A stretch of 64,000 nucleotides of DNA from Woeseia sp. GTDB lineage: Bacteria > Pseudomonadota > Gammaproteobacteria > Steroidobacterales > Woeseiaceae. The translations under genes were made by a program, and so were the position numbers. The notes beneath the pieces were generated by a model that ran no database searches, had not been told where the DNA came from, and was given only the letters and a program-made list of their open reading frames with translations. The stretch is from positions 310,001-374,000 of the forward strand of contig JAJFKW010000004.1 of the NCBI GenBank assembly GCA_021773015.1, in the 5' to 3' direction. This document shows, piece after piece, positions 10,497 to 21,832 of the stretch. Position 1 is the first letter of the stretch; the number at the start of each line of letters is the position of its first letter.

Positions 10497-12779
10497 ATGT
10501 CATTTCTCAGTTCACTGAGGCGCCATTTTCGTCTCATATTCTTGATTTCATTGTTCGCGCCGGGTTTTGCTGTTGCGGACACCGTATCCACCAGCTTCGA
10601 AACCCAAGTTGCTGGCGATTTCACGCTCGGAACGACACCACTGTCAGCCGATTTTAGCGGCGGCAACGTGATGGTCGTTGGTATTCCGGCGTATTACCGA
10701 ACCGGCACCCACTCTTGGCATGTCGCACCGGGCGTAACTGCAACCGTCACTTTCGAAACGCCGGCCAGCTCGGTCGACCTGTGGTTTCGCGATACCGCAA
10801 ACGCGGGTCCAAGTGAAGTTCGAATCATCGATACGGACGGCGCGGTCGTCGCATCATTGACTGGCTCACAGACCTTCCAAAATGTGGCTGCTCTTCGAGC
10901 AGCCGGCGAAACGCTCATCGCGAGCGTTGAGGTGCAGAATTCAGGTGCGGCGGAAGACGTCGTCGTTGATGATTTCGAATTCGTCGCCGACGTTGCGGCA
11001 CCTGGACCAACGCCGCTAGATGATCCTATTCCCGAAAGTATCCCAATGGGCACGGAAATCCAACTAACGGGCGTTGCGAGTGGCCTCACCGCACCTGTCT
11101 GGGCAACCTACCCGCCTGGCGATACAACGCGGCTAATAATTGTCGATCAAGCCGGATTTCTGGTGGCGCTCGATCTTGCGACTGAGCAAACCAGTATCTT
11201 CCACGACGTAACCGGGCAGTTGGTACCGTTGGGTGCCTTCGGTCCAGGTACATTTGACGAGCGCGGATTATTAGGCGTCGCGTTTCACCCCGACTATGCC
11301 GCGAATGGGCTGTTGTACACCTATACGTCCGAACCGGTCGCAGGTGCCGCCGATTTCTCAACCATCCCGATCAACGAAACAGCAAATCACCAAACGGTAG
11401 TTAACGAATGGGCTGTTATCGCGCCGGCGGATCCAACGTCGGTAGTCGATACAACGAGCGCACGGGAACTGCTACGCATTGATCAACCGCAGTTTAATCA
11501 CAATGCGGGCGCACTCGTGTTCGACGCCAACGGCTATCTTTATATCGCGCTTGGCGACGGTGGTGGCGCGGACGATGTCGACGGACAGAACTTTATTGGT
11601 TCACCGATCATCGGCCATGGCACCGGCAATGCCAAAGACAAATCGAATCCATTGGGCTCCATTTTACGCATCGATCCGCTTGGCACAGACTCCACGAACG
11701 GCTCGTACGGCATTCCCGCAACTAATCCATACTTTGGGCAAGCAGGCGTCGTACAGGAAATGTTCGCTAGTGGCCTACGCAACCCGTTCCGTATGTCTTT
11801 CGATAGTGTGACGTCTGATCTTTACGTCGCAGACGTTGGTCAAAACGACATTGAAGAAGTCAATATCGTTTCTGCCGGCGACAACCTCGGTTGGAACTAC
11901 AAAGAGGGCACGTTCTTCTTTGATGCAAACGGCAATGAAGCGGGCTTTGTAACCGATGTCGATCCTGGCGTACCGGCGGGTCTCGTCGATCCGATCGCTC
12001 AATATGACCATGACGAAGGCGTGGCGATTATCGGCGGCTTCGTGTATCGCGATGGCGGCGCTTCGTCGCTGGATGGAAGTTACATCTTCGGCGACTTCGG
12101 CGGACCGAACGGTGATATCGGTCGACTCTTCTACCTAAACGGTGCAAACGACATTGTCGAATTCGATATTCGCGGCCGCGCCAATCTGGGCACACCGTTG
12201 CTCGGCTTCGGGCAGGACGCAACCGGAAATATCTATGTTCTGGCCAACACAACCGGCACTCCTAGTGGTACAACCGGAATTGTCTACCGAATCGACCCCG
12301 GTCCAGGCCGATTGAATGTCGATATGGCCGCTGTCGCAGTCGCTGAAGACGCGGGCATGGCGACAGTCACCGTTAACCGTAGCGGTGGCGATAACGGTGC
12401 CGCGTCAGTTGATTTTGCGACAGCAGGAGGCACGGCGACAGAAGACACGGACTACACCGCAGCGACAGGCACCTTGGATTGGGCAGATGGCGAGGTAGGT
12501 CCTAAGACCATCGATGTTGCAATTACCGACGATGCGGACCAAGAAGCTGACGAGACTTTCACGCTAACCCTTAGCAATGCAGTTGGCGCCGATCTAGGAA
12601 CGATGACTGACGTTACCGTCACCATCTCGGCTAATGATGCACCACCGCCACCTCCTCCTCCGCCACCACCTCCACCCCGTCGCGGCGGTAGTGGTTCAAC
12701 AGATGGCTGGATGTTGCAATTGATGCTGGTATCAGCGTTAGTCAGCGTAGTCGGCAGGCGGCGCAGGAAACGACTCTAG
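10497..12779 (+). CDS. Exported PQQ-type sugar dehydrogenase with Calx-beta domain and C-terminal sorting-like tail
   Basis: 760 residues with GGAGGAG before the ATG. Order: signal peptide (1-27); an N-terminal beta domain (to about 165); a glucose/sorbosone dehydrogenase propeller (about 195-590; FDERGLLGVAFHPDY, NHNAGALVFDANGYLYIALGDGG, GLRNPFRMSFD, YVADVGQNDIEEVN); a Calx-beta repeat (about 610-715); a run of 12 prolines; and a tail of GGSGST, a hydrophobic segment and GRRRRKRL. The tail resembles GlyGly-CTERM type sorting signals. The family oxidises sugars in the periplasm with PQQ. The substrate, and whether PQQ is made, cannot be judged here. Confidence 0.85.
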   Translation: MSFLSSLRRHFRLIFLISLFAPGFAVADTVSTSFETQVAGDFTLGTTPLSADFSGGNVMVVGIPAYYRTGTHSWHVAPGVTATVTFETPASSVDLWFRDTANAGPSEVRIIDTDGAVVASLTGSQTFQNVAALRAAGETLIASVEVQNSGAAEDVVVDDFEFVADVAAPGPTPLDDPIPESIPMGTEIQLTGVASGLTAPVWATYPPGDTTRLIIVDQAGFLVALDLATEQTSIFHDVTGQLVPLGAFGPGTFDERGLLGVAFHPDYAANGLLYTYTSEPVAGAADFSTIPINETANHQTVVNEWAVIAPADPTSVVDTTSARELLRIDQPQFNHNAGALVFDANGYLYIALGDGGGADDVDGQNFIGSPIIGHGTGNAKDKSNPLGSILRIDPLGTDSTNGSYGIPATNPYFGQAGVVQEMFASGLRNPFRMSFDSVTSDLYVADVGQNDIEEVNIVSAGDNLGWNYKEGTFFFDANGNEAGFVTDVDPGVPAGLVDPIAQYDHDEGVAIIGGFVYRDGGASSLDGSYIFGDFGGPNGDIGRLFYLNGANDIVEFDIRGRANLGTPLLGFGQDATGNIYVLANTTGTPSGTTGIVYRIDPGPGRLNVDMAAVAVAEDAGMATVTVNRSGGDNGAASVDFATAGGTATEDTDYTAATGTLDWADGEVGPKTIDVAITDDADQEADETFTLTLSNAVGADLGTMTDVTVTISANDAPPPPPPPPPPPPRRGGSGSTDGWMLQLMLVSALVSVVGRRRRKRL

Positions 12780-14129: not shown

Positions 14130-14939
14130 CTAATTCTTATTGATATGAATATCTCCGTTCAGCGATTTCAACTTCACGATTGGGCCGCCACCGTTCACGT
14201 TGGCGATGATGACACTTTCCACCAACACCTCGATGCCGCCGCGGTTTTCCTTACGCTGTACGATAGGCTTGTTGGGTTGAACCTCTACCTCAAAGTCGGA
14301 ATATATTTCGCCGCGCGCCGTATCGATGTGTAATTGCGCGCCCTCGTCGGCAGCTAATCCGATCTTCAAGTCGCCATTGACCGAAGTGAAAGAGATCGTG
14401 TCACTATCATTCAACTCCGAGAAACTAACATCGATCGTTTGATTTATAGCTTCGGCAATAACGGAACCTCTGACATTAGTCGCCGTGATAGGTCCATTAA
14501 CATTTTCGAGTTGCATATCACCCGTAATGTTGCGAACGATGATCTCCCCGTCGTTGACCGTACCAAGACGTAGGTCCGCACGCTTCGGTAAACGGACAAC
14601 GATACTCGCTTTATTCATACGCCAATCGGTATCCACCGATATGTGATTATCGTCTTCATCAATTTCCAGCGCATAACTGCCTACGGAAAGCGATTTCGGG
14701 CCGGACGGCGTGATGATTCTTCTACTGCCTTCTACCACTGAAAACGAAACTTCTGCGTCGTCCCTGTCTTCACCGATCACCTCAATGCGAGCTGACATCA
14801 ATTCAATATCCAAAGTCACGGGTTCACCAGGACGCGATAGCGGAATAGGGATTACCTGTTGATTCGCTTGCCCAAATACGGCGCTGCTGCCAAGCAACAA
14901 CGTAACTGCAAAGGCGATTCGGGTTAGAAGTTTATTCAT
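14130..14939 (-). CDS. Exported toastrack-like (DUF4097-type) protein, second of pair
   Basis: 269 residues. NKLLTRIAFAVTLLLGSSAVFGQ is a signal peptide. The mature part repeats short beta motifs: ISVDTDWRMNKASIVVRLPKRADLRLGTVNDGEIIVRNITGDMQLENVNGPI..., then SVNGDLKIGL and LKSLNGDIHINKN. This ladder of NG-D-I turns is the signature of the toastrack fold (DUF4097), found beside sigma/anti-sigma genes and in envelope sensors. The start at 14939 has GGAG six bases upstream. It is last in the first ECF operon, starting 11 bases after the preceding gene. Confidence 0.75.
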   Translation of the reverse strand: MNKLLTRIAFAVTLLLGSSAVFGQANQQVIPIPLSRPGEPVTLDIELMSARIEVIGEDRDDAEVSFSVVEGSRRIITPSGPKSLSVGSYALEIDEDDNHISVDTDWRMNKASIVVRLPKRADLRLGTVNDGEIIVRNITGDMQLENVNGPITATNVRGSVIAEAINQTIDVSFSELNDSDTISFTSVNGDLKIGLAADEGAQLHIDTARGEIYSDFEVEVQPNKPIVQRKENRGGIEVLVESVIIANVNGGGPIVKLKSLNGDIHINKN

Positions 14940-14950
14940 CATTGTCTCCA

Positions 14951-15814
14951 CTACTGATTTTCTTTAATTTGGATATCGCCGTTAAGCGACGTCAAAGTGA
15001 ACGTCGGGCCACCCGCACCTAAGCGAATGCCCGCTGGCTGCTCGATACGATACGTATAGCGCCCATCCTGCGTTGTCTGCTCCACCCGGGCAGGGATTGC
15101 CAGCGCGTCGACATCGAATTCTGATGTCGTGCGGCCATTAAACTGATCGAGCGCAACGTCCAAACCGGCCCCTGCCGGTAACCCAACGGTAATGTCACCA
15201 TTGATTGTTTCAATGCCACAGTCCTCGTTGGGCGCGCGCGAAAATTGTAGTTCGACCGCGCCGTTAACGCTTTCGACTAGTGAGCAGTCATGTATCCCCG
15301 CTACGCTAACCGGCCCATTGACGTTGCTGGCAGCCACACGTCCGGTAATGCCCTCGACACTGACGCGACCGTCCATGACAGTGCTAACGTCAATCTCGCT
15401 TCCAGGCGGTACGAAAACATCGAATTGCAGATCAAGTCGACAGCCCCGGCATCGGTCCATGCGGCGCCAGTTACGGTCCGGTTCGCCAACAACCATAGAT
15501 AGACTCGATGAATCTGCGTTGATGTGCAGGCGCAGTGTTTCCAACGACCGTTCGAGTGACTCTCGACTGGGCGCGGAACGGTTTTCGTCAACCGTAACCT
15601 TGATCTGGCCCGGCTCACCGGCGCGCACCCGGACGCTGCCCCAGATATTGCTGATTACGACGAGTGGATGATCGTCATTGACCGAATACGTTTCGGTCCA
15701 CACATTACTCTCGCTGGCGTCTTCGCGGGCATATAACGATGAGCTCAGCAACAACAACATTACGATGATTGTTGTTGCTCTCACGGCCATTGCCATTTCG
15801 GTCGTAACCTTCAT
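14951..15814 (-). CDS. Exported toastrack-like (DUF4097-type) protein, first of pair
   Basis: 287 residues with a signal peptide (RATTIIVMLLLLSSSLYA). The mature part has the same ladder as the next gene: SNIWGSVRVRAG, VMDGRVSVEGITGRVAASNVNGPVSV, ESVNGAVELQF, ETINGDITVGL and LTSLNGDIQI. Four cysteines (RCRGCRL, HDCS, NEDCG) may form disulfides in the periplasm. The ATG overlaps the stop of the anti-sigma-like gene (ATGA). The two toastrack proteins probably arose by tandem duplication. A periplasmic sensing or scaffold role is inferred from operon position. Confidence 0.75.
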   Translation of the reverse strand: MKVTTEMAMAVRATTIIVMLLLLSSSLYAREDASESNVWTETYSVNDDHPLVVISNIWGSVRVRAGEPGQIKVTVDENRSAPSRESLERSLETLRLHINADSSSLSMVVGEPDRNWRRMDRCRGCRLDLQFDVFVPPGSEIDVSTVMDGRVSVEGITGRVAASNVNGPVSVAGIHDCSLVESVNGAVELQFSRAPNEDCGIETINGDITVGLPAGAGLDVALDQFNGRTTSEFDVDALAIPARVEQTTQDGRYTYRIEQPAGIRLGAGGPTFTLTSLNGDIQIKENQ

Positions 15815-16521
15815 ATTTTTTCCCCTTGCACAGACGATTCGACGTATTGCACCAAATCTTCATGCAACCGTCCTAAGTCGGCTAATTGAATAAGTCGTTG
15901 TAGCTGCGCTGTACTACCGTGACGCAAGACAAGGTCCACCAGTGCGAGCTGCACCAGAGGAGACTCGGCTGCCTCCAACGACGCCATGAGTTCTCCGCCC
16001 ACTTCCGGCTCCCGTAGTTGCGGTCCCAGCGCATCTATTGCCGCTGATCTGACAGACGAAACGCTGTCCTCCGTTGCGCGAGTCAATAATGCCCTAGCCA
16101 CTTCGACGTCGTATTCAGCGATACTGCTCGCGTCGAATACACCGCGCAGGCGTTTACTGGCGGACGCGTTTTCGAGCCGATCCAGAATAAGGCTCCGATT
16201 CAAGATCGTTACTTGTTGCTGCAATGCCGCTAGAGATTGCGAATCGCCCGCTGGCACACGATCTTGCAGCTGGCCAACAGTCAATCCGAGCGCAAGACAG
16301 ACCGTTGCTGTCAACCACCCAAGGTTGCCGCTGAAGCCCAGAAAGTTACGTAGCCGGTCATGCCAGCGAAGCGAGCTCGTGCGATCCAATTCCTGGAAAA
16401 ACGATCGTCGCAGATGCGCCGATGGCGACGCTTGCGGATAATCCTCAAGCGCATCCCAAAGTTGCTGTTCGCTGGCATCAGCCGCAGTGAATGGCACGCC
16501 CGTGTTATTTTTGTCAGACAT
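15811..16521 (-). CDS. Membrane anti-sigma-like protein with HEAT-like periplasmic repeats
   Basis: 236 residues. The N-terminal 70 residues are polar and would be cytoplasmic (EQQLWDALEDYPQASPSAHLRRSFFQEL). One span follows (GWLTATVCLALGLTVGQL), then a heptad-like stretch (SLAALQQQVTILNRSLILDRL) and an alpha-helical region resembling HEAT repeats (EDSVSSVRSAAIDALGPQL, ESPLVQLALVDLVLRHGS). No zinc-binding HxxxCxxC motif is seen. Position between an ECF sigma gene (8-base overlap) and toastrack genes (4-base overlap) makes it the likely anti-sigma factor; that role is inferred. Confidence 0.7.
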   Translation of the reverse strand: MSDKNNTGVPFTAADASEQQLWDALEDYPQASPSAHLRRSFFQELDRTSSLRWHDRLRNFLGFSGNLGWLTATVCLALGLTVGQLQDRVPAGDSQSLAALQQQVTILNRSLILDRLENASASKRLRGVFDASSIAEYDVEVARALLTRATEDSVSSVRSAAIDALGPQLREPEVGGELMASLEAAESPLVQLALVDLVLRHGSTAQLQRLIQLADLGRLHEDLVQYVESSVQGEKI

Positions 16522-17083
16522 CGATTGGTGCTCCGTTCAATGTTGCAAATGTCTCGTTGAGTAACTTCATTGCGCGATGCATGCGCACACGTGCGGCATC
16601 GCGTTTACAACCCAATGCTTGGCCGAGTTCTTCGTAATTTTGAAATTCAAACCGGCCCAGCCAGATCACTTCTCTCACCGCAGCAGGCATTTCTGCGAGC
16701 GCTTGCTGCAACAATTGCACGTTCTGTTTGCCGGCAGCGGCCTGTTCGGCCGAGCGAGAGTCGACTAACTGCTCTTCGAAGGACTCATCGACACGGCTCA
16801 GTGCTCCCTGGCGCTGCGTTTTGCGTAGATAGTCGAAGGTCTCATTTCTGGCGATGTTGAACATCCACGCTTTGAAACTGCCGTCACCGCGAAAACTCGC
16901 TGCTTTTCGTAGAATCTTCAGGAAGATGTCCTGCACCAAGTCCTCGCTCAACGCGTCGCGTCGCGTCATTTGCAGGCAATATTTGAATAGCGCGCGATGG
17001 TGGCGCTCAAACAGAGTCCCCAGGCAAGACGAATCGCCACCGGCGACCCACTGAATGAGTTGTTCGTCAGATACCGCTTGCAT
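16514..17083 (-). CDS. ECF sigma factor (first module)
   Basis: About 189 residues of sigma-70 region 2 and region 4 only, the plan of extracytoplasmic function sigma factors. Region 2 is SSCLGTLFERHHRALFKYCLQMTRRDALSEDLVQDIFLKILRKAASFRGDGSFKAWMFNIARN (about 20-90); region 4 is LAEMPAAVREVIWLGRFEFQNYEELGQALGCKRDAARVRMHRAMKLL. In-frame ATGs at 17089 and 17095 are alternative starts; 17083 has GGAA six bases upstream. It leads the first four-gene operon and carries a candidate promoter of its own type upstream, which fits self-regulation. Confidence 0.88.
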   Translation of the reverse strand: MQAVSDEQLIQWVAGGDSSCLGTLFERHHRALFKYCLQMTRRDALSEDLVQDIFLKILRKAASFRGDGSFKAWMFNIARNETFDYLRKTQRQGALSRVDESFEEQLVDSRSAEQAAAGKQNVQLLQQALAEMPAAVREVIWLGRFEFQNYEELGQALGCKRDAARVRMHRAMKLLNETFATLNGAPIDV

Positions 17084-17110
17084 GGTCATTTCCATCAATC
17101 ATGTAAGCAA

Positions 17111-17137
17111 AGACGCGGTAGCGTCAGAAACGTTACA
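17111..17137 (-). promoter_or_regulatory. Candidate ECF-type promoter of the first sigma operon
   Basis: On the minus strand a TGTAAC box (17132-17137) is separated by 16 bases from CGTCT (17111-17115). AAC-type -35 and CGTC-type -10 boxes at this spacing are the common form of ECF sigma promoters, so the operon may be transcribed by its own sigma factor. The match is by eye. Confidence 0.45.
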
Positions 17138-17264
17138 AAATATTGGATCAACACTTGAACTGTGTAGATATTTCGTCGGCATCTGGTGCAGTTTACGCAA
17201 ATTCGATCAGGTAACATGTCGCCCTATTGTTCTAAGCACAAGACGCACGTATTGGAGAATGGTC

Positions 17265-18497
17265 ATGCATAGACGTGATTTTATGCTCATGCTGCCGGCC
17301 AGTTTACTGATGCCGAAATACGGCACTGCTGCCACCGCTGCGCCATTTAAGATTCGCACGATAACCGCTGGACTGAATCTCGGTGCGCGCGGCGGTATGC
17401 GGCAGCTCACAGACGCGCTGCGTTTTCTGCAAGCTGCCAAGTCGGCATATGAAGCGGAAGGCTACGCGGTGCAGACATTACGCATTGCGACGCAGCCGTT
17501 AGCGGATTACATGGATGACTGGCTGGGCGACGATGCGTTGCGTGAATTGGCCGACATGGACGCTTTCTGCCAGGAAAACAATCTCCGCCTAAGCGTGGGA
17601 CCTGTCATCAACACGGATCGCTACTATCCGGAGTTGGCAGTCTGGGCGACAGAGCTAGTCAATACGACCAAGCGAATCAGCTTCGCAATCAATGTCGCTT
17701 CAAACGTTGGAATACACAAGCAGGCGATTCGTGCGGCCGCGGAAGCGATGTCAGAGGTCGCCAATGCCACCGCGGGTGGTGAGGGTAATTTCCGTTTTGC
17801 AGCGACGGCACATTGTCCGCCAGGAACGCCATTTTTCCCGGCGGCGTGGCACCAAGGCGAAGCCTCGTTTGCTATCGGCTTAGAGACCCCGCCACTGCTG
17901 TACGAAGCTGTTCGGTCTTGGACAAAAGATCGATCGGTAACCAATTACCTCCAAAAAATATTGAATAGTGCGTTGGCGCCGGTACAGGTCATTGCAAATC
18001 GCATATCGGCAGATACACAGCAAAACTACCTTGGCATTGACACTTCCCCTGCTCCTGGCCCAAATGCCAGTATCGGTGAAGTTATTGAAAAAATTTCTGG
18101 CAAACCGTTTGGCAGCTCCTCCACGCTTGGTGCTTGTGCCAGCATTACAGATGCGCTGAGAAGCCTGGATGTGCAGACTTGTGGCTATTCGGGACTCATG
18201 TTGCCTGTGCTTGAAGACAAGATTTTGGCCAAGCGTGCTGTGGAGCGGCGGTATCGGATTTCCGACCTGCTGCTATTTTCCAGCGTTTGTGGCACCGGCC
18301 TAGATGTGATTCCGCTGCCCGGCGACACATCTGCCGAATCATTGGCTTCAATTATCGGGGACGTTGCTGCTTTATCGCATAAATATCAGAAACCGCTATC
18401 TGCAAGACTATTGCCTGTTCCCGGAAAATCTGTTGGAGACGAGGTCTCTTTCGATAACCCGTTTTTGACAGATTCGGTGGTCATGAGCCCGCAATAA
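17265..18497 (+). CDS. Tat-exported DUF711 (UPF0210) family protein
   Basis: 410 residues. The N-terminus MHRRDFMLMLPASLLM has the twin-arginine pattern RRDFM, then a hydrophobic stretch ending in ATAA, so export by Tat is expected. The body matches the DUF711/UPF0210 family: FKIRTITAGLNLG at the start, AAKSAYEAEGYAVQTLRIATQP, and a C-terminal ADTQQNYLGIDTSPAPGP. Biochemical function of the family is unknown to me; most members lack a signal peptide. GGAG lies eight bases before the chosen ATG. It sits between two ECF sigma operons, divergent from the first and co-directional with the second. Confidence 0.78.
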   Translation: MHRRDFMLMLPASLLMPKYGTAATAAPFKIRTITAGLNLGARGGMRQLTDALRFLQAAKSAYEAEGYAVQTLRIATQPLADYMDDWLGDDALRELADMDAFCQENNLRLSVGPVINTDRYYPELAVWATELVNTTKRISFAINVASNVGIHKQAIRAAAEAMSEVANATAGGEGNFRFAATAHCPPGTPFFPAAWHQGEASFAIGLETPPLLYEAVRSWTKDRSVTNYLQKILNSALAPVQVIANRISADTQQNYLGIDTSPAPGPNASIGEVIEKISGKPFGSSSTLGACASITDALRSLDVQTCGYSGLMLPVLEDKILAKRAVERRYRISDLLLFSSVCGTGLDVIPLPGDTSAESLASIIGDVAALSHKYQKPLSARLLPVPGKSVGDEVSFDNPFLTDSVVMSPQ

Positions 18498-18591
18498 CCC
18501 CGCGATTCTCTAAGATTTCGTAGTAGATTGATGCAACGCAGATCGCGAGTTGATGATCCAGTGATCTTTAGGTCACCGCTAAAAGAGAAAA

Positions 18592-19173
18592 ATGCGGTCT
18601 GTAGCTAACCAATTATCGCATCCGGACATCAAACCCAAGATGGTGGCAGTAATCAAAAGCGCCGGGCAACCCACCCAAGCGGAATTTCACGATGCGATCG
18701 CGAATCGAGCAGATCGTTGGTACGCGGCGTGCCTGCGCATAACGCGCGACCGCCAGTTAGCGGAAGATGCGGTACAAGACGCATTGCTGAATGCCTGGGC
18801 CAAGCGGCATCAGTTTGAGCATGGTGCAAGACTCGATACCTGGATTCATCGCATCGCAGTGAACGCCGCATTGCAGTTGCTGCGCAAGCGACGGCCAGCC
18901 CAATGGGAATCGCTAGTGGACGACGTATTGGATGACTCATCGCCGCCCGAAGCTGCCAGATCACACGACGAACTCAATCGCGACCTCGGCCAGGCTTTGC
19001 AACAACTTACGGAAATAGAACGTGTGTGCTTCGTACTCAAACATCTTGAGCAATGGCGGCTTCGAGAAATCGCAGATGAACTGAAAACCAATGTCGGCAC
19101 CGTCAAACAAGCCATTTTTCGGTCGGTTAAGAAACTACGCAATACGATGACACCAGAGCAGGTGACACAATGA
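18592..19173 (+). CDS. ECF sigma factor (second module)
   Basis: 193 residues with sigma region 2 (ADRWYAACLRITRDRQLAEDAVQDALLNAWAKRHQFEHGARLDTWIHRIAVNAALQLLRKRRP) and region 4 (LTEIERVCFVLKHLEQWRLREIADELKTNVGTVKQAIFRSVKKLR). It is not a close copy of the sigma factor 1.5 kb away. The start is uncertain; an internal ATG at 18640 is possible. Its stop overlaps the next start (ATGA), so sigma and anti-sigma are translated together. No promoter of ECF type was found upstream. Confidence 0.87.
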   Translation: MRSVANQLSHPDIKPKMVAVIKSAGQPTQAEFHDAIANRADRWYAACLRITRDRQLAEDAVQDALLNAWAKRHQFEHGARLDTWIHRIAVNAALQLLRKRRPAQWESLVDDVLDDSSPPEAARSHDELNRDLGQALQQLTEIERVCFVLKHLEQWRLREIADELKTNVGTVKQAIFRSVKKLRNTMTPEQVTQ

Positions 19174-19910
19174 ATGATGAAAAAACCAGCGAAGACAAAC
19201 TTACGCTTTACTACTACGGTGAGCTCGATCTCGCCCAGAAAAGTGAATTGGAAGAGATTCTTAGACACGACGCCGCATGTGCTCGCCGTTATCAACGACT
19301 GTGCGACGAATTGGAATCTTTGTCCGTGACTGAAGAGGAACAAGCACCTCCACAAGCCGTGGCCCGGTGGCACGCCGCGTTGGATACCGCAATTTCGCGA
19401 GAACAACGTACAACGACACAAAAAAAGCCGTGGTTTGATATTTCGTCATTTGTGTGGGGCACGGCGGTAACTGCGACGTTGGTTGTTGGATTCTCGATCG
19501 GTGTTTGGTATTCGGACACGACCGCTGTGAATACACTGTCCGAAACAGGCACCGCGCACGACGTTCCGGAAAATAGCACAACCGTCCCAATATCTTTCGC
19601 GCGTGGGCTGCATGCCCATTTGAAACAAAGTCACGCGGATATTCGTGATAACACAATCGACGACCAAACCAGTGTGCTACTTCTGGAAATCGTCCGGCAG
19701 AACAGACTATTTGAACGCGCAGCGGACGCCAATAACTCGCCGCAGCTAGCAAGAGTGTTGAGATCCTTCGAGCCTATTCTGCTGCAGCTGGCGAGTGATG
19801 AGCTTACGCAAGGTGATGCCGACGCACTACGCTCGCAGCTCGCATTCGAACTCAACGTCATGCTAACCAAATTGCAGCGCGATACATCTGAACAATCACA
19901 TTCAACCTAA
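19170..19910 (+). CDS. Membrane anti-sigma-like protein (second module)
   Basis: 246 residues. The first 90 are cytoplasmic and resemble anti-sigma N-termini (DKLTLYYYGELDLAQKSELEEILRHDAACARRYQRLCDEL), although a full zinc-binding HxxxCxxC is absent. One span follows (FVWGTAVTATLVVGFSIGVWY, about 90-112). The periplasmic part is helical (TSVLLLEIVRQNRLFERAADANNSPQLARVLRSFEPILLQLAS). Translational coupling to the sigma gene and the single span support an anti-sigma role; direct evidence is lacking. Confidence 0.72.
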   Translation: MNDEKTSEDKLTLYYYGELDLAQKSELEEILRHDAACARRYQRLCDELESLSVTEEEQAPPQAVARWHAALDTAISREQRTTTQKKPWFDISSFVWGTAVTATLVVGFSIGVWYSDTTAVNTLSETGTAHDVPENSTTVPISFARGLHAHLKQSHADIRDNTIDDQTSVLLLEIVRQNRLFERAADANNSPQLARVLRSFEPILLQLASDELTQGDADALRSQLAFELNVMLTKLQRDTSEQSHST

Positions 19911-19925
19911 TTTGAGGCACGCCAA

Positions 19926-20834
19926 ATGCAACGTAATCGACTGTCCGCCTTGTTTCTATTTGCCATATTCGTTTGTGGCGACGCAATAGCGCAAGACTCA
20001 GAAAATGGCGCGACCGACGCGACGGAAGATTTGAAAATTGCCGCGATTGAAGCGCTAATCTCCGCACCGCCGCACCGCGCCCTACCAATTATCAAAAAAG
20101 TTCTGTCGGGAAACCATAGCAACGACTTAAAGGAGCGCGCGCTTTTCATACTCAGCCAACTTGATATTGCCGAAGCGCAACAGATTCTGCTGGATACAGC
20201 GAAAAACGGCAGTGGAGAATTGCGGAACGAGTCGATTCGAATGATCGGTATCGGTGGCGATACTGATGCACTCCGTGGCCTCGCAGAGATTTATGCTAGC
20301 GGCGATGCTGAGACGAAGGAAAGCGTGTTGGAAGCTTACTTAATTGCAGACGACGCGGAATCCGTTTACCAGATCGCCGCCAATTCGAGTAGCGATGGCG
20401 AGTTTGAAACTGCTGTCGACATTCTAGGTGCAATGGGTGCAACCGAGCAACTCAGAAAGCTGCGGGGACGCGGCGGAAGCTCAGAAAGCCTGGTCCAGGC
20501 GTACGCGATAGCTGGCGATTATGAATCGCTGAGTGAGATGGCACATGACATTAGCGATCCGGAAACACAAATGCACGCAATCAGCGGCCTCGGCATTGTC
20601 GGCGGCGAACAAGTGAACACCACTTTGATGTCTATCTACCACGGAACCGACAACGCTGACGTCAAAGAGGCTGCACTGGAAGGAATGATGATCTCGGGAT
20701 ACGACGCAGGTGTTCTTGAGCTGTTTCGCGCGAGCGACGACCCAGCCGAAAAGCGCGAGCTGTTGGAGATGTTGGTAATCATGGACAGCGATGAAGTCCT
20801 CGATTTGATTGATCAAATGCTCGACGGAAACTAG
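19926..20834 (+). CDS. Exported HEAT-repeat protein A
   Basis: 302 residues with a signal peptide (LSALFLFAIFVCGDAIAQ). The mature part is a chain of about eight HEAT-like helical pairs, for example DLKERALFILSQLDIAEAQQILLDTAK, GELRNESIRMIGIGGDTDALRGLAEIYA and NADVKEAALEGMMISGYDAGVLELF. HEAT solenoids bind protein partners. It starts 16 bases after the anti-sigma-like gene and ends two bases before the next gene, so it belongs to the same operon. Its partner is probably in the periplasm. Confidence 0.78.
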   Translation: MQRNRLSALFLFAIFVCGDAIAQDSENGATDATEDLKIAAIEALISAPPHRALPIIKKVLSGNHSNDLKERALFILSQLDIAEAQQILLDTAKNGSGELRNESIRMIGIGGDTDALRGLAEIYASGDAETKESVLEAYLIADDAESVYQIAANSSSDGEFETAVDILGAMGATEQLRKLRGRGGSSESLVQAYAIAGDYESLSEMAHDISDPETQMHAISGLGIVGGEQVNTTLMSIYHGTDNADVKEAALEGMMISGYDAGVLELFRASDDPAEKRELLEMLVIMDSDEVLDLIDQMLDGN

Positions 20835-20836
20835 AC

Positions 20837-21832
20837 ATGAATACCCCAATTTCAAAACTAAAGATGAAATTGACTGCCGCGTTGATTCTGACAACCAGTC
20901 TGAGTACTACCGTGCACGGTCAGTCATTACAATTCGGCAATGACGGGTGGTACACATGGCGTGTCGAGGCCGCGGCTGATGCGCCTAGCTGGTGCTGCTT
21001 TACTTGGAACACTGGCGACGCCAAAGTTAAGGCGTGTAACCTCGACCGTCGGCACGGAAATTACAGCAGTACCGACCGATTGTCGTTCGACAATAGTGAG
21101 ATGCAAGTCTACGCGCACTTCGATCGCGGTAAAGCTGACAAAATTCAGACACTCAGCCCGGAGTGCCCAATCGCGTCGCCAATGGAGATTCAAGATCTTG
21201 GCAGCGTCGACATAGATACGAGCATCGATTGGCTACAGAAACGAATCACTGCAAATCATCGCCTGAGTAGCGATGCGATGGCGGCTATCTCCGTACACGA
21301 CGGCGACCGTGCGACGAACGCTCTGCTTAGGACGGCGAAAGGCGACCAACACTTCGAGAATCGCAAGGATGCACTATTCTGGCTGGCGATGGTTCGAGGT
21401 ACGGAAGTGCATCGGGACATTGAGAGATTGATGCTCGCCGACAGAGATCCCGAGTTCCGGGAACATGCGGCATTTGCGATGGCGCAGTCGAAAGCCCCGC
21501 AACGCACCGAGTCACTGATCAAGCTAGGCAAAAACGACGCGAACGCGGATGTCCGCTCGCAAGCATGGTTTTGGCTCGCACAGACCGGTGCCAGCGAAAG
21601 CGAAGCGGCAATTTACACGGCAATTCAAAACGACAAAGATCATGACGTCAGAGAAGAAGCCGTTTTTGCATTATCGCAACTACCCGATCAGCGTGCTCTA
21701 AAGGCGCTCGTCGAGATCTTGGAAAATCGCGAATTCGGCCGTGACGAACGTAAGCAAGCGTTGTTTTGGCTTGCGCAAATTGATTCGGACGATGCCGCTA
21801 GCTATCTACAAAAGATACTGAGTGATACCTGA
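20837..21832 (+). CDS. Exported HEAT-repeat protein B with N-terminal cysteine-rich beta domain
   Basis: 331 residues. A signal peptide (LTAALILTTSLSTTVHGQ) precedes a beta-rich domain of about 100 residues with four cysteines (WYTWRVEAAADAPSWCCFTW, KACNLD, PECP). After about 140 come HEAT-like repeats with a strict pattern: RKDALFWLAMVRG, REHAAFAMAQSKA, RSQAWFWLAQTGA, REEAVFALSQLPD, RKQALFWLAQID. The repeats are more regular than in protein A. It closes the second ECF operon, two bases after protein A. Binding of a ligand or the partner toastrack proteins is speculation. Confidence 0.8.
   Translation: MNTPISKLKMKLTAALILTTSLSTTVHGQSLQFGNDGWYTWRVEAAADAPSWCCFTWNTGDAKVKACNLDRRHGNYSSTDRLSFDNSEMQVYAHFDRGKADKIQTLSPECPIASPMEIQDLGSVDIDTSIDWLQKRITANHRLSSDAMAAISVHDGDRATNALLRTAKGDQHFENRKDALFWLAMVRGTEVHRDIERLMLADRDPEFREHAAFAMAQSKAPQRTESLIKLGKNDANADVRSQAWFWLAQTGASESEAAIYTAIQNDKDHDVREEAVFALSQLPDQRALKALVEILENREFGRDERKQALFWLAQIDSDDAASYLQKILSDT

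Follow-up and report, generated by a model that had tools for sequence, protein, structure and literature searches.

Two neighbouring ECF sigma factor operons with zinc-less anti-sigma-like proteins and exported HEAT or toastrack partners in a Woeseia genome

The 64,000-nucleotide stretch of a Woeseia sp. genome analysed here (assembly GCA_021773015.1, contig JAJFKW010000004.1; hereafter the window) contains two neighbouring operons, each led by an extracytoplasmic function (ECF) sigma factor gene coupled to a gene for an anti-sigma-like protein. Operon A runs on the minus strand from 17083 to 14130 in the order sigma A, anti-sigma-like A, toastrack 1, toastrack 2. Operon B runs on the plus strand from 18640 to 21832 in the order sigma B, anti-sigma-like B, HEAT protein 1, HEAT protein 2. 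We propose that these are probably two separate, largely self-contained and self-regulating ECF switches lying side by side, which would sense the envelope through their exported partners. We put forward a broader reading only tentatively. Two envelope-sensing sigma circuits of one lineage may in parallel have reduced a zinc-type anti-sigma factor, in B by way of a zinc-less bundle, until one membrane-anchored helix was left to bind sigma. Control would have moved to the periplasm: in A to a HEAT solenoid that is part of the anti-sigma, and in B to exported HEAT proteins, which in many of these genomes would have a promoter within the anti-sigma gene. The contig that holds the window is 504 kb long and belongs to a 4.84 Mb genome, and the named relatives of the family are Woeseiaceae.

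The two operons and their proteins

Sigma A (16514..17083, minus strand) and sigma B (18640..19173, plus strand) score 100.8 and 91.4 bits against the ECF model TIGR02937, which has a cut-off of 42.9. Both match Sigma70_r2 and r4_2 above cut-off, with the other sigma regions unmatched, and both may already carry an ECF group number. Their starts, corrected from 17098 and 18592, were set by relatives; the extra N-terminus of the longer open reading frames is promoter DNA, and some N-termini in the alignments used for this choice are lengthened by fused upstream frames. The sigma and anti-sigma-like genes overlap by 8 bases in A and 4 bases in B, an overlap also present in relatives. A first-pass annotation of this DNA had described two ECF sigma factors, each leading a coupled operon with a single-span anti-sigma-like partner, and that description holds. 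Both gene orders recur in other genomes.

Anti-sigma-like A (15811..16521, minus strand) has a short cytoplasmic part, a predicted span from residue 67 and a C-terminal HEAT domain. HEAT_2 matches it at 27.7 bits, exactly the cut-off, and all eight rows of its alignment, window included, match HEAT_2 at E 0.01, in agreement with the HEAT-like helices reported earlier for one of the two anti-sigma-like proteins. Toastrack 1 (14951..15814, minus strand), predicted to be exported, has no Pfam match in the window and is recognised through the DUF4097 matches of its relatives. Two of these, L059 (29.2 bits) and L060 (27.6 bits), exceed the Pfam cut-off of 22.9, and the others of the set fall below. 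Toastrack 2 (14130..14951, minus strand), also predicted to be exported, matches DUF4097 (PF13349) at 5e-4 and 19.8 bits and LiaG at 1e-6, both below the curated cut-offs. Five of the six rows of its alignment match DUF4097 at E 0.01, and its relatives L234 (30.7 bits) and L245 (35.9 bits) are above cut-off, the others of the set below. The toastrack of the acidobacterial locus L110 is also above cut-off, at 27.8 bits, and relatives of the two toastracks match each other at 1e-16 to 1e-27. The signal peptides of the exported proteins were judged by inspection.

The same genome holds a third operon (L013:5877-8033, on G000:C1 at about 2549-2551 kb), consisting of an ECF sigma gene, a gene for a 191-residue protein that is anti-sigma-like by position and has no Pfam match, and one exported toastrack scoring 79.6 bits for DUF4097. 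It has no HEAT parts.

Anti-sigma-like B (19170..19910, plus strand) has no Pfam match and matches the NCBIfam family 'antisigma' at 1.8e-8, below the cut-off of that family. Its best 19-residue hydropathy, 1.76, begins at residue 94. The structure model (mean predicted local distance difference test score, pLDDT, 80; predicted template modelling score, pTM, 0.48) shows three helices, a fourth helix, the span and then an outer domain of four helices at 141-245. The predicted helices at 8-15, 21-33, 35-52 and 61-83 would fit the three-plus-one layout of the class I anti-sigma domain (ASDI).

HEAT protein 1 (19926..20834, plus strand; HEAT_2 at 4e-15) and HEAT protein 2 (20837..21832, plus strand) both score as HEAT proteins in Pfam and are predicted to be exported, although the signal peptide of HEAT protein 2 is weak (1.07). 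The exported proteins of both operons, toastracks in A and HEAT proteins in B, are thus as first annotated. In the model of HEAT protein 2 (pLDDT 89.7, pTM 0.84), residues 37-123 form a beta domain and residues 126-329 a HEAT solenoid. The model matches HEAT solenoids in the fold search, and the beta domain is unmatched among the fold-search matches listed. This domain has cysteines at 53, 54, 67 and 110; across 20 rows, window included, Cys110 is invariant and Cys53 and Cys67 reach at least 90% conservation, a pattern that would be compatible with disulphides in an exported domain. Five of 11 HEAT protein 2 rows are short, at about 170-220 residues, and three others are cut by contig ends. 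Because the beta domain is kept in the short rows, which have no more than the end of the solenoid, it seems to be the constant part of the protein.

Zinc ligands and the anti-sigma bundle

The zinc motif Hx3Cx2C is absent from both anti-sigma-like proteins of the window, as the first-pass annotation had stated, and B retains HDAACARR. To place this among relatives, rows were sorted by their best-scoring query, the window form or the L110 form, after removal of rows identical in the first 80 letters of the region; the set includes some partial or overlapping rows. Of the rows closest to the acidobacterial form, 48/48 A-type and 37/43 B-type ones have the motif; of those closest to the window form, 0/15 A-type and 0/59 B-type ones do, and no proteobacterial row has it. 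Four of the six acidobacterial-side B-type rows without it are partial or split (L223, L229, L215 and L269), and the remaining two, L109 and L111, are complete. These two are zinc-less with a full-length bundle and resemble the proteobacterial form. zf-HC2 matches at E 0.01 in all ten acidobacterial A-type proteins, below cut-off in L110 and above it in L234.

When the two A-type profiles are compared, the window form covers residues 44-268 of the acidobacterial one (E 9e-30). Because the alignment starts at residue 44, the zinc bundle is without a counterpart in the window A type. The segment that follows the bundle, LWxxLGxLPxExPSxxLRxxFYxxL, is conserved between the phyla. Within the order, all 14 A-type rows start the span at residue 67-78; in the 18 acidobacterial rows with a correctly chosen start it begins at 89-115. 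L249, L238 and L269, for which wrong starts were chosen, are excluded from these counts, and L249 and L238 carry zinc motifs. The B type occurs in three states: a zinc bundle in Acidobacteriota, a zinc-less bundle in 29/44 proteobacterial rows, window included, and no bundle in the other 15, in which the span lies at 52-61. The bundle is thus absent with the following helix kept in all 14 A-type rows of the order and in 15/44 proteobacterial B-type rows.

According to PMC7406223, class I anti-sigma factors contact sigma region 4 through helices 1 to 3 and region 2 through helix 4. The same paper describes zinc and non-zinc anti-sigma factors that mix within groups, with about 48% of membrane-bound forms binding zinc, and zinc loss alone would therefore be ordinary. 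As far as the sequences go, the unusual part is that the bundle is absent with the next helix kept, in two circuits. We consider the missing zinc motif most likely a derived state, reached by loss rather than gain. A HEAT protein 1 tree was built from 58 rows, each 220 residues or longer. In it, a branch supported at 99/99 separates 13 acidobacterial rows and one further bacterium. The Gammaproteobacterium row L108 stands beside the acidobacterial group, and L096, labelled Phycisphaerae, stands among the proteobacteria. Because the tree is unrooted, it gives no direction of transfer or of the zinc change.

The window forms are linked to anti-sigma factors by their acidobacterial relatives, by gene position and, for B, by the sub-threshold NCBIfam match. 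Like SigW/RsiW and SigE/ChrR, which are class I ASDI systems, both operons pair a sigma factor of regions 2 and 4 with a coupled membrane anti-sigma-like protein. A B-type profile built with acidobacterial rows among its members matches RsiW at 4e-4 and ChrR weakly. Unlike in those systems, the window proteins have no zinc ligands and window A also lacks the three-helix bundle. Their outer parts differ too, being a HEAT solenoid or a four-helix domain accompanied by exported HEAT or toastrack partners. The class II anti-sigma CnrY has a short cytoplasmic segment without a zinc bundle. PMC7406223 lists it as a class II outgroup. The short window form is similar to CnrY in that segment but, unlike it, is related to a zinc-bundle form.

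Promoter-like motifs

Motif patterns were read from the regions upstream of the sigma genes. The A motif, TGTAACR, 15 bases and CGTC, lies at 17112..17137 on the minus strand. The B motif, GCTAACC, 15 bases and RCATC, lies at 18604..18630 on the plus strand, and a second copy lies within the anti-sigma B gene at 19862..19888 on the same strand, 37 bp ahead of the HEAT 1 gene. Autoregulated ECF promoters have an AAC -35 and a CGT -10 according to PMC8103513. By motif only, A fits this pattern, as in class I ASDI systems with autoregulation; B keeps TAACC and has CATC as its -10. The motif of sigma B ends 9 bases before the ATG at 18640 and is close to the start also in the listed relatives. Therefore, the sigma B transcript would be nearly leaderless.

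In 1.53 Mb of partly redundant loci there are 13 strict A matches and 61 strict B matches. All 13 A matches lie upstream of sigma A in A operons, one each in 13 of the 14 A loci of the order, at 14-45 bp from the gene in ten loci and 202-380 bp in three. The 61 B matches are likewise confined to B operons, each ahead of either sigma or HEAT 1. No A motif was found at operon B, and no B motif at operon A, in the loci scanned. The window genome has exactly two copies of the B motif, one before sigma B and the other within the anti-sigma B gene; for the window, shuffles expect 0.01 matches, and none of 100 shuffles had two. A scan of 46 further family genomes, with G213 omitted for its partial HEAT 1 match, gave 64 strict B matches against 33 for a reversed control pattern. 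In the 40 B-bearing genomes among them, 40 of 59 matches fall in operon B and 19 elsewhere, and the six genomes without B have five. The 40 operon matches comprise 27 before sigma and 13 at 31-37 bp ahead of the HEAT 1 match. Strict operon matches occur in 28 of the 40 genomes.

The internal B site overlaps a coding segment, MLTKL...TS, and we considered that it might reflect protein conservation alone. The codon for the leucine of MLTKL speaks against this for the -35 half: it is CTA in 30/30 rows with leucine, although these rows are related and not independent, against a CTA share of 5.6% among the leucine codons of these operon genes. This difference argues for selection on the DNA at the site. 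Four more rows have isoleucine or glutamine at that position. Fewer genomes carry the strict -10 half, and none of the 15 bundle-less rows does. In Acidobacteriota, related motifs precede sigma by strict pattern, CTAAC with GTCTA in 14/21 B loci and GTAACC with GTAT in 10/20 A loci, with one B-like match elsewhere in 0.53 Mb.

Distribution, mechanism and alternatives

A search of the order (196 genomes, with that of the window) finds the A anti-sigma in nine genomes and HEAT protein 2 in 13. The 13 A loci fetched from the order all retain sigma, anti-sigma and toastrack 1, plus toastrack 2 where the contig continues (two are cut). Eighteen acidobacterial A regions all have sigma, anti-sigma and toastrack 2; 12 also have a recognised toastrack 1, which was not found by search in the other six (L238, L239, L240, L243, L244 and L250). 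A HEAT 1 scan of named genomes gave 66 loci, mostly from records labelled Gammaproteobacteria, Woeseiaceae, Lysobacterales, Chromatiales or Proteobacteria. L109-L127 include 17 Acidobacteriota and one further bacterium, and one record each is labelled Betaproteobacteria and Phycisphaerae. In L110, from the class Terriglobia, operon B, a further toastrack, operon A and an ABC ATPase gene lie on one strand within 10 kb. Proteins matching its HEAT-bearing anti-sigma occur in 61 of 299 genomes of the class, a few of them partial and not reaching the HEAT part. Because the gene orders recur in Woeseiaceae and Acidobacteriota, operons A and B are modules common to two phyla.

ABC transporter genes, ATPase first, follow operon A in the acidobacterial loci L234:6368-13238, L235:226-7707 and L110:11547-15537 and in L056:820-7083 of G072 (Woeseiaceae). 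Permease genes are present in three of the four and are FtsX/MacB-like by eye, and L234 and L235 have one more weak toastrack-like match behind the ABC genes. Because such genes follow operon A, envelope or antimicrobial stress is hinted at as the signal. Near an acidobacterial operon B, L113:12590-15722 encodes a sigma factor, a zinc anti-sigma-like protein, apparently with further HEAT-like helices, and a 524-residue protein with a toastrack match.

We envisage that each single-span anti-sigma would hold its sigma factor at the inner membrane, with its C-terminal part (the HEAT domain in A, the four-helix domain in B) facing the periplasm. Both anti-sigma-like proteins are related to the acidobacterial zinc-type, class I form, with the zinc ligands, and in A the whole bundle, missing; the helix left over would be the one that binds sigma region 2 in class I anti-sigma factors. 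The outer domain would most likely meet the exported partners of the same operon, toastracks in A and HEAT proteins in B. Together they would form the sensor, and a change in contact would free the sigma factor to transcribe its own operon. Sigma B would also use the second promoter inside the anti-sigma gene, boosting the HEAT genes. More HEAT protein would then re-establish the contact, giving negative feedback of the kind that RseA and RseB exert on sigma E. E. coli RpoE/RseA/RseB likewise combines a single-span anti-sigma with a periplasmic co-regulator from one operon (PMC8103513), a likeness in way of working only: the window partners are HEAT or toastrack proteins, and the four-gene operons contain no protease gene.

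The first-pass annotation had suggested one dual envelope-sensing circuit. In such a wiring A and B would act together, and HEAT and toastrack proteins from both would meet in one sensor. Co-occurrence speaks in its favour, and so does linkage in a few other genomes (G078, L110, G288 and G341). Of 107 family genomes, 12 match the A profile and 42 the HEAT 1 profile; 11 match both, and B is thus present in 11 of the 12 A-bearing Woeseiaceae, where 4.7 are expected (Fisher p 1e-4, odds ratio 23). In the 299 Terriglobia genomes A occurs in 61, B (HEAT 1) in 97 and both in 44, where 19.8 are expected (Fisher p 7e-13, odds ratio 9). The operons thus co-occur above expectation in two phyla, rather than rarely. 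These tests, which carry no control for ancestry, genome size or completeness, also speak against a chance meeting of two common operons. However, 31 of the 42 B-bearing Woeseiaceae have no A match, and linkage is sporadic. The operons lie within 20 kb in 2/11 Woeseiaceae and 2/44 Terriglobia, counts that are lower bounds since many contigs are short or fragmented. Both are on one contig in the window genome and G078 (14.5 kb), and in four of the 44 Terriglobia, with gaps of 4.3 kb (L110, HEAT 1 to anti-sigma A), 18 kb (G288), 30 kb (G341) and 383 kb. In the other nine Woeseiaceae and in 41/44 Terriglobia they are on different contigs or 383 kb apart. The contigs exclude linkage within 20 kb for four of the nine (G072, G105, G129 and G227) but not for G189, G199, G226, G249 and G252, and they exclude it for at least 8 of the 41 (G300, G353, G382, G410, G419, G470, G494 and G553). 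A single conserved A+B locus acting as a unit is rejected on these counts, as adjacency recurs only sporadically. The operons tend to share genomes but are not a fixed pair. Given in addition the separate motifs, neither of which appears at the other operon in the loci scanned, we regard one wired circuit as improbable. Each sigma gene has its own motif, and the B motif of the window genome lies only in operon B, and we therefore favour two separate, mainly self-regulating circuits.

Two alternatives concern the parts within each operon. The exported HEAT and toastrack proteins could be outputs only, for example envelope scaffolds or chaperones, with the anti-sigma sensing alone. An internal promoter that raises the HEAT genes without the anti-sigma would suit an effector, as would the ABC transporter genes behind operon A in L110, L234, L235 and G072. 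However, the exported partners stand in fixed order beside the anti-sigma in two phyla, as is usual for RseB-like co-regulators, and anti-sigma A itself has a HEAT solenoid, a protein-binding fold. We consider pure outputs unlikely, yet a serious candidate. It is distinctly less probable that anti-sigma A has ceased to be an anti-sigma and, without its zinc bundle, merely anchors partners while sigma A is controlled otherwise. The missing counterpart to the first 43 acidobacterial residues is what one would expect of such a protein, and the window A-type profile finds HEAT-like proteins and no anti-sigma in the PDB. Against this, the segment after the bundle is conserved between the phyla, gene coupling is retained, and the 15 equally reduced proteobacterial B-type rows include ten with a strict B motif before sigma.

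The same PDB result also weighs against our proposal of two sensing switches, as do several further points. The best 19-residue hydropathy of anti-sigma-like A, 1.56 from residue 67, makes its predicted span weak and is under the script threshold of 1.6. Neither window anti-sigma-like protein has an anti-sigma Pfam match, and a profile of ten proteobacterial B-type rows alone finds neither RsiW nor any other anti-sigma in the PDB. With Foldseek, the model of anti-sigma-like B gave designed four-helix bundles and weak sensor-domain matches, none significant, and the best match of the four-helix domain has an E of 0.19. On the promoter side, 12/40 B-bearing genomes have no strict B match in the operon. 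The B pattern was derived from sigma upstream regions, and matches there are partly by construction, which does not apply to the matches at HEAT 1 or to the lack of excess elsewhere. The strict internal motif is present in 13/29 full-bundle B rows and 0/15 bundle-less ones, where an internal promoter may be lacking, weak or of another kind. The A motif has three matches in the window genome, one of them at operon A, and the reversed control has ten; because the two further matches compare with ten in the control, it defines no regulon. Strict patterns would also miss looser copies elsewhere.

Toastracks (DUF4097) in phage-shock and Lia contexts are similarly linked to transcriptional output. 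PMC11237479 mentions an operonically linked sigma factor and argues that the domain is intracellular, unlike the window toastracks, which carry signal peptides by inspection. PspA, PspC and LiaF are absent among the operon proteins and the DUF711 gene product, to which the search for them was confined. Literature searches on HEAT repeats with anti-sigma factors and on toastracks or DUF4097 with sigma factors returned no description of these modules, in keeping with the earlier failure to match a described system; PMC3174227 lists the HEAT and anti-sigma words apart in its available part. A paper on Woeseiales transcription names SigV transcripts and, in the part available, not these operon genes (PMC7451513). 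We judge the system to be a variant of ECF/anti-sigma systems not found described in the literature searched.

The operons are divergent neighbours as first described, but not strictly back to back: a DUF711 gene (17265..18497, plus strand), a member of neither, separates them. No DUF711 gene was matched in the related loci scanned, and we therefore treat it as unrelated. Elsewhere in the window, 10497-12779 encodes a large exported sugar-dehydrogenase-like protein. Its C-terminal tail, a glycine-rich stretch, a hydrophobic span and arginines, presumably resembles a GlyGly-CTERM-type sorting signal. At L012:86-5697, read by eye, a large YD-repeat protein with a Hint-like end is followed directly by a small HEAT protein (226 residues), an arrangement resembling that of a toxin with its immunity protein.

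Living relatives show all three states, zinc bundle, zinc-less bundle and no bundle, in the same gene setting. Because of this, the need for the anti-sigma bundle becomes directly testable. The intragenic promoter, in turn, would let an ECF sigma factor raise an exported partner without its inhibitor, and do so compactly.

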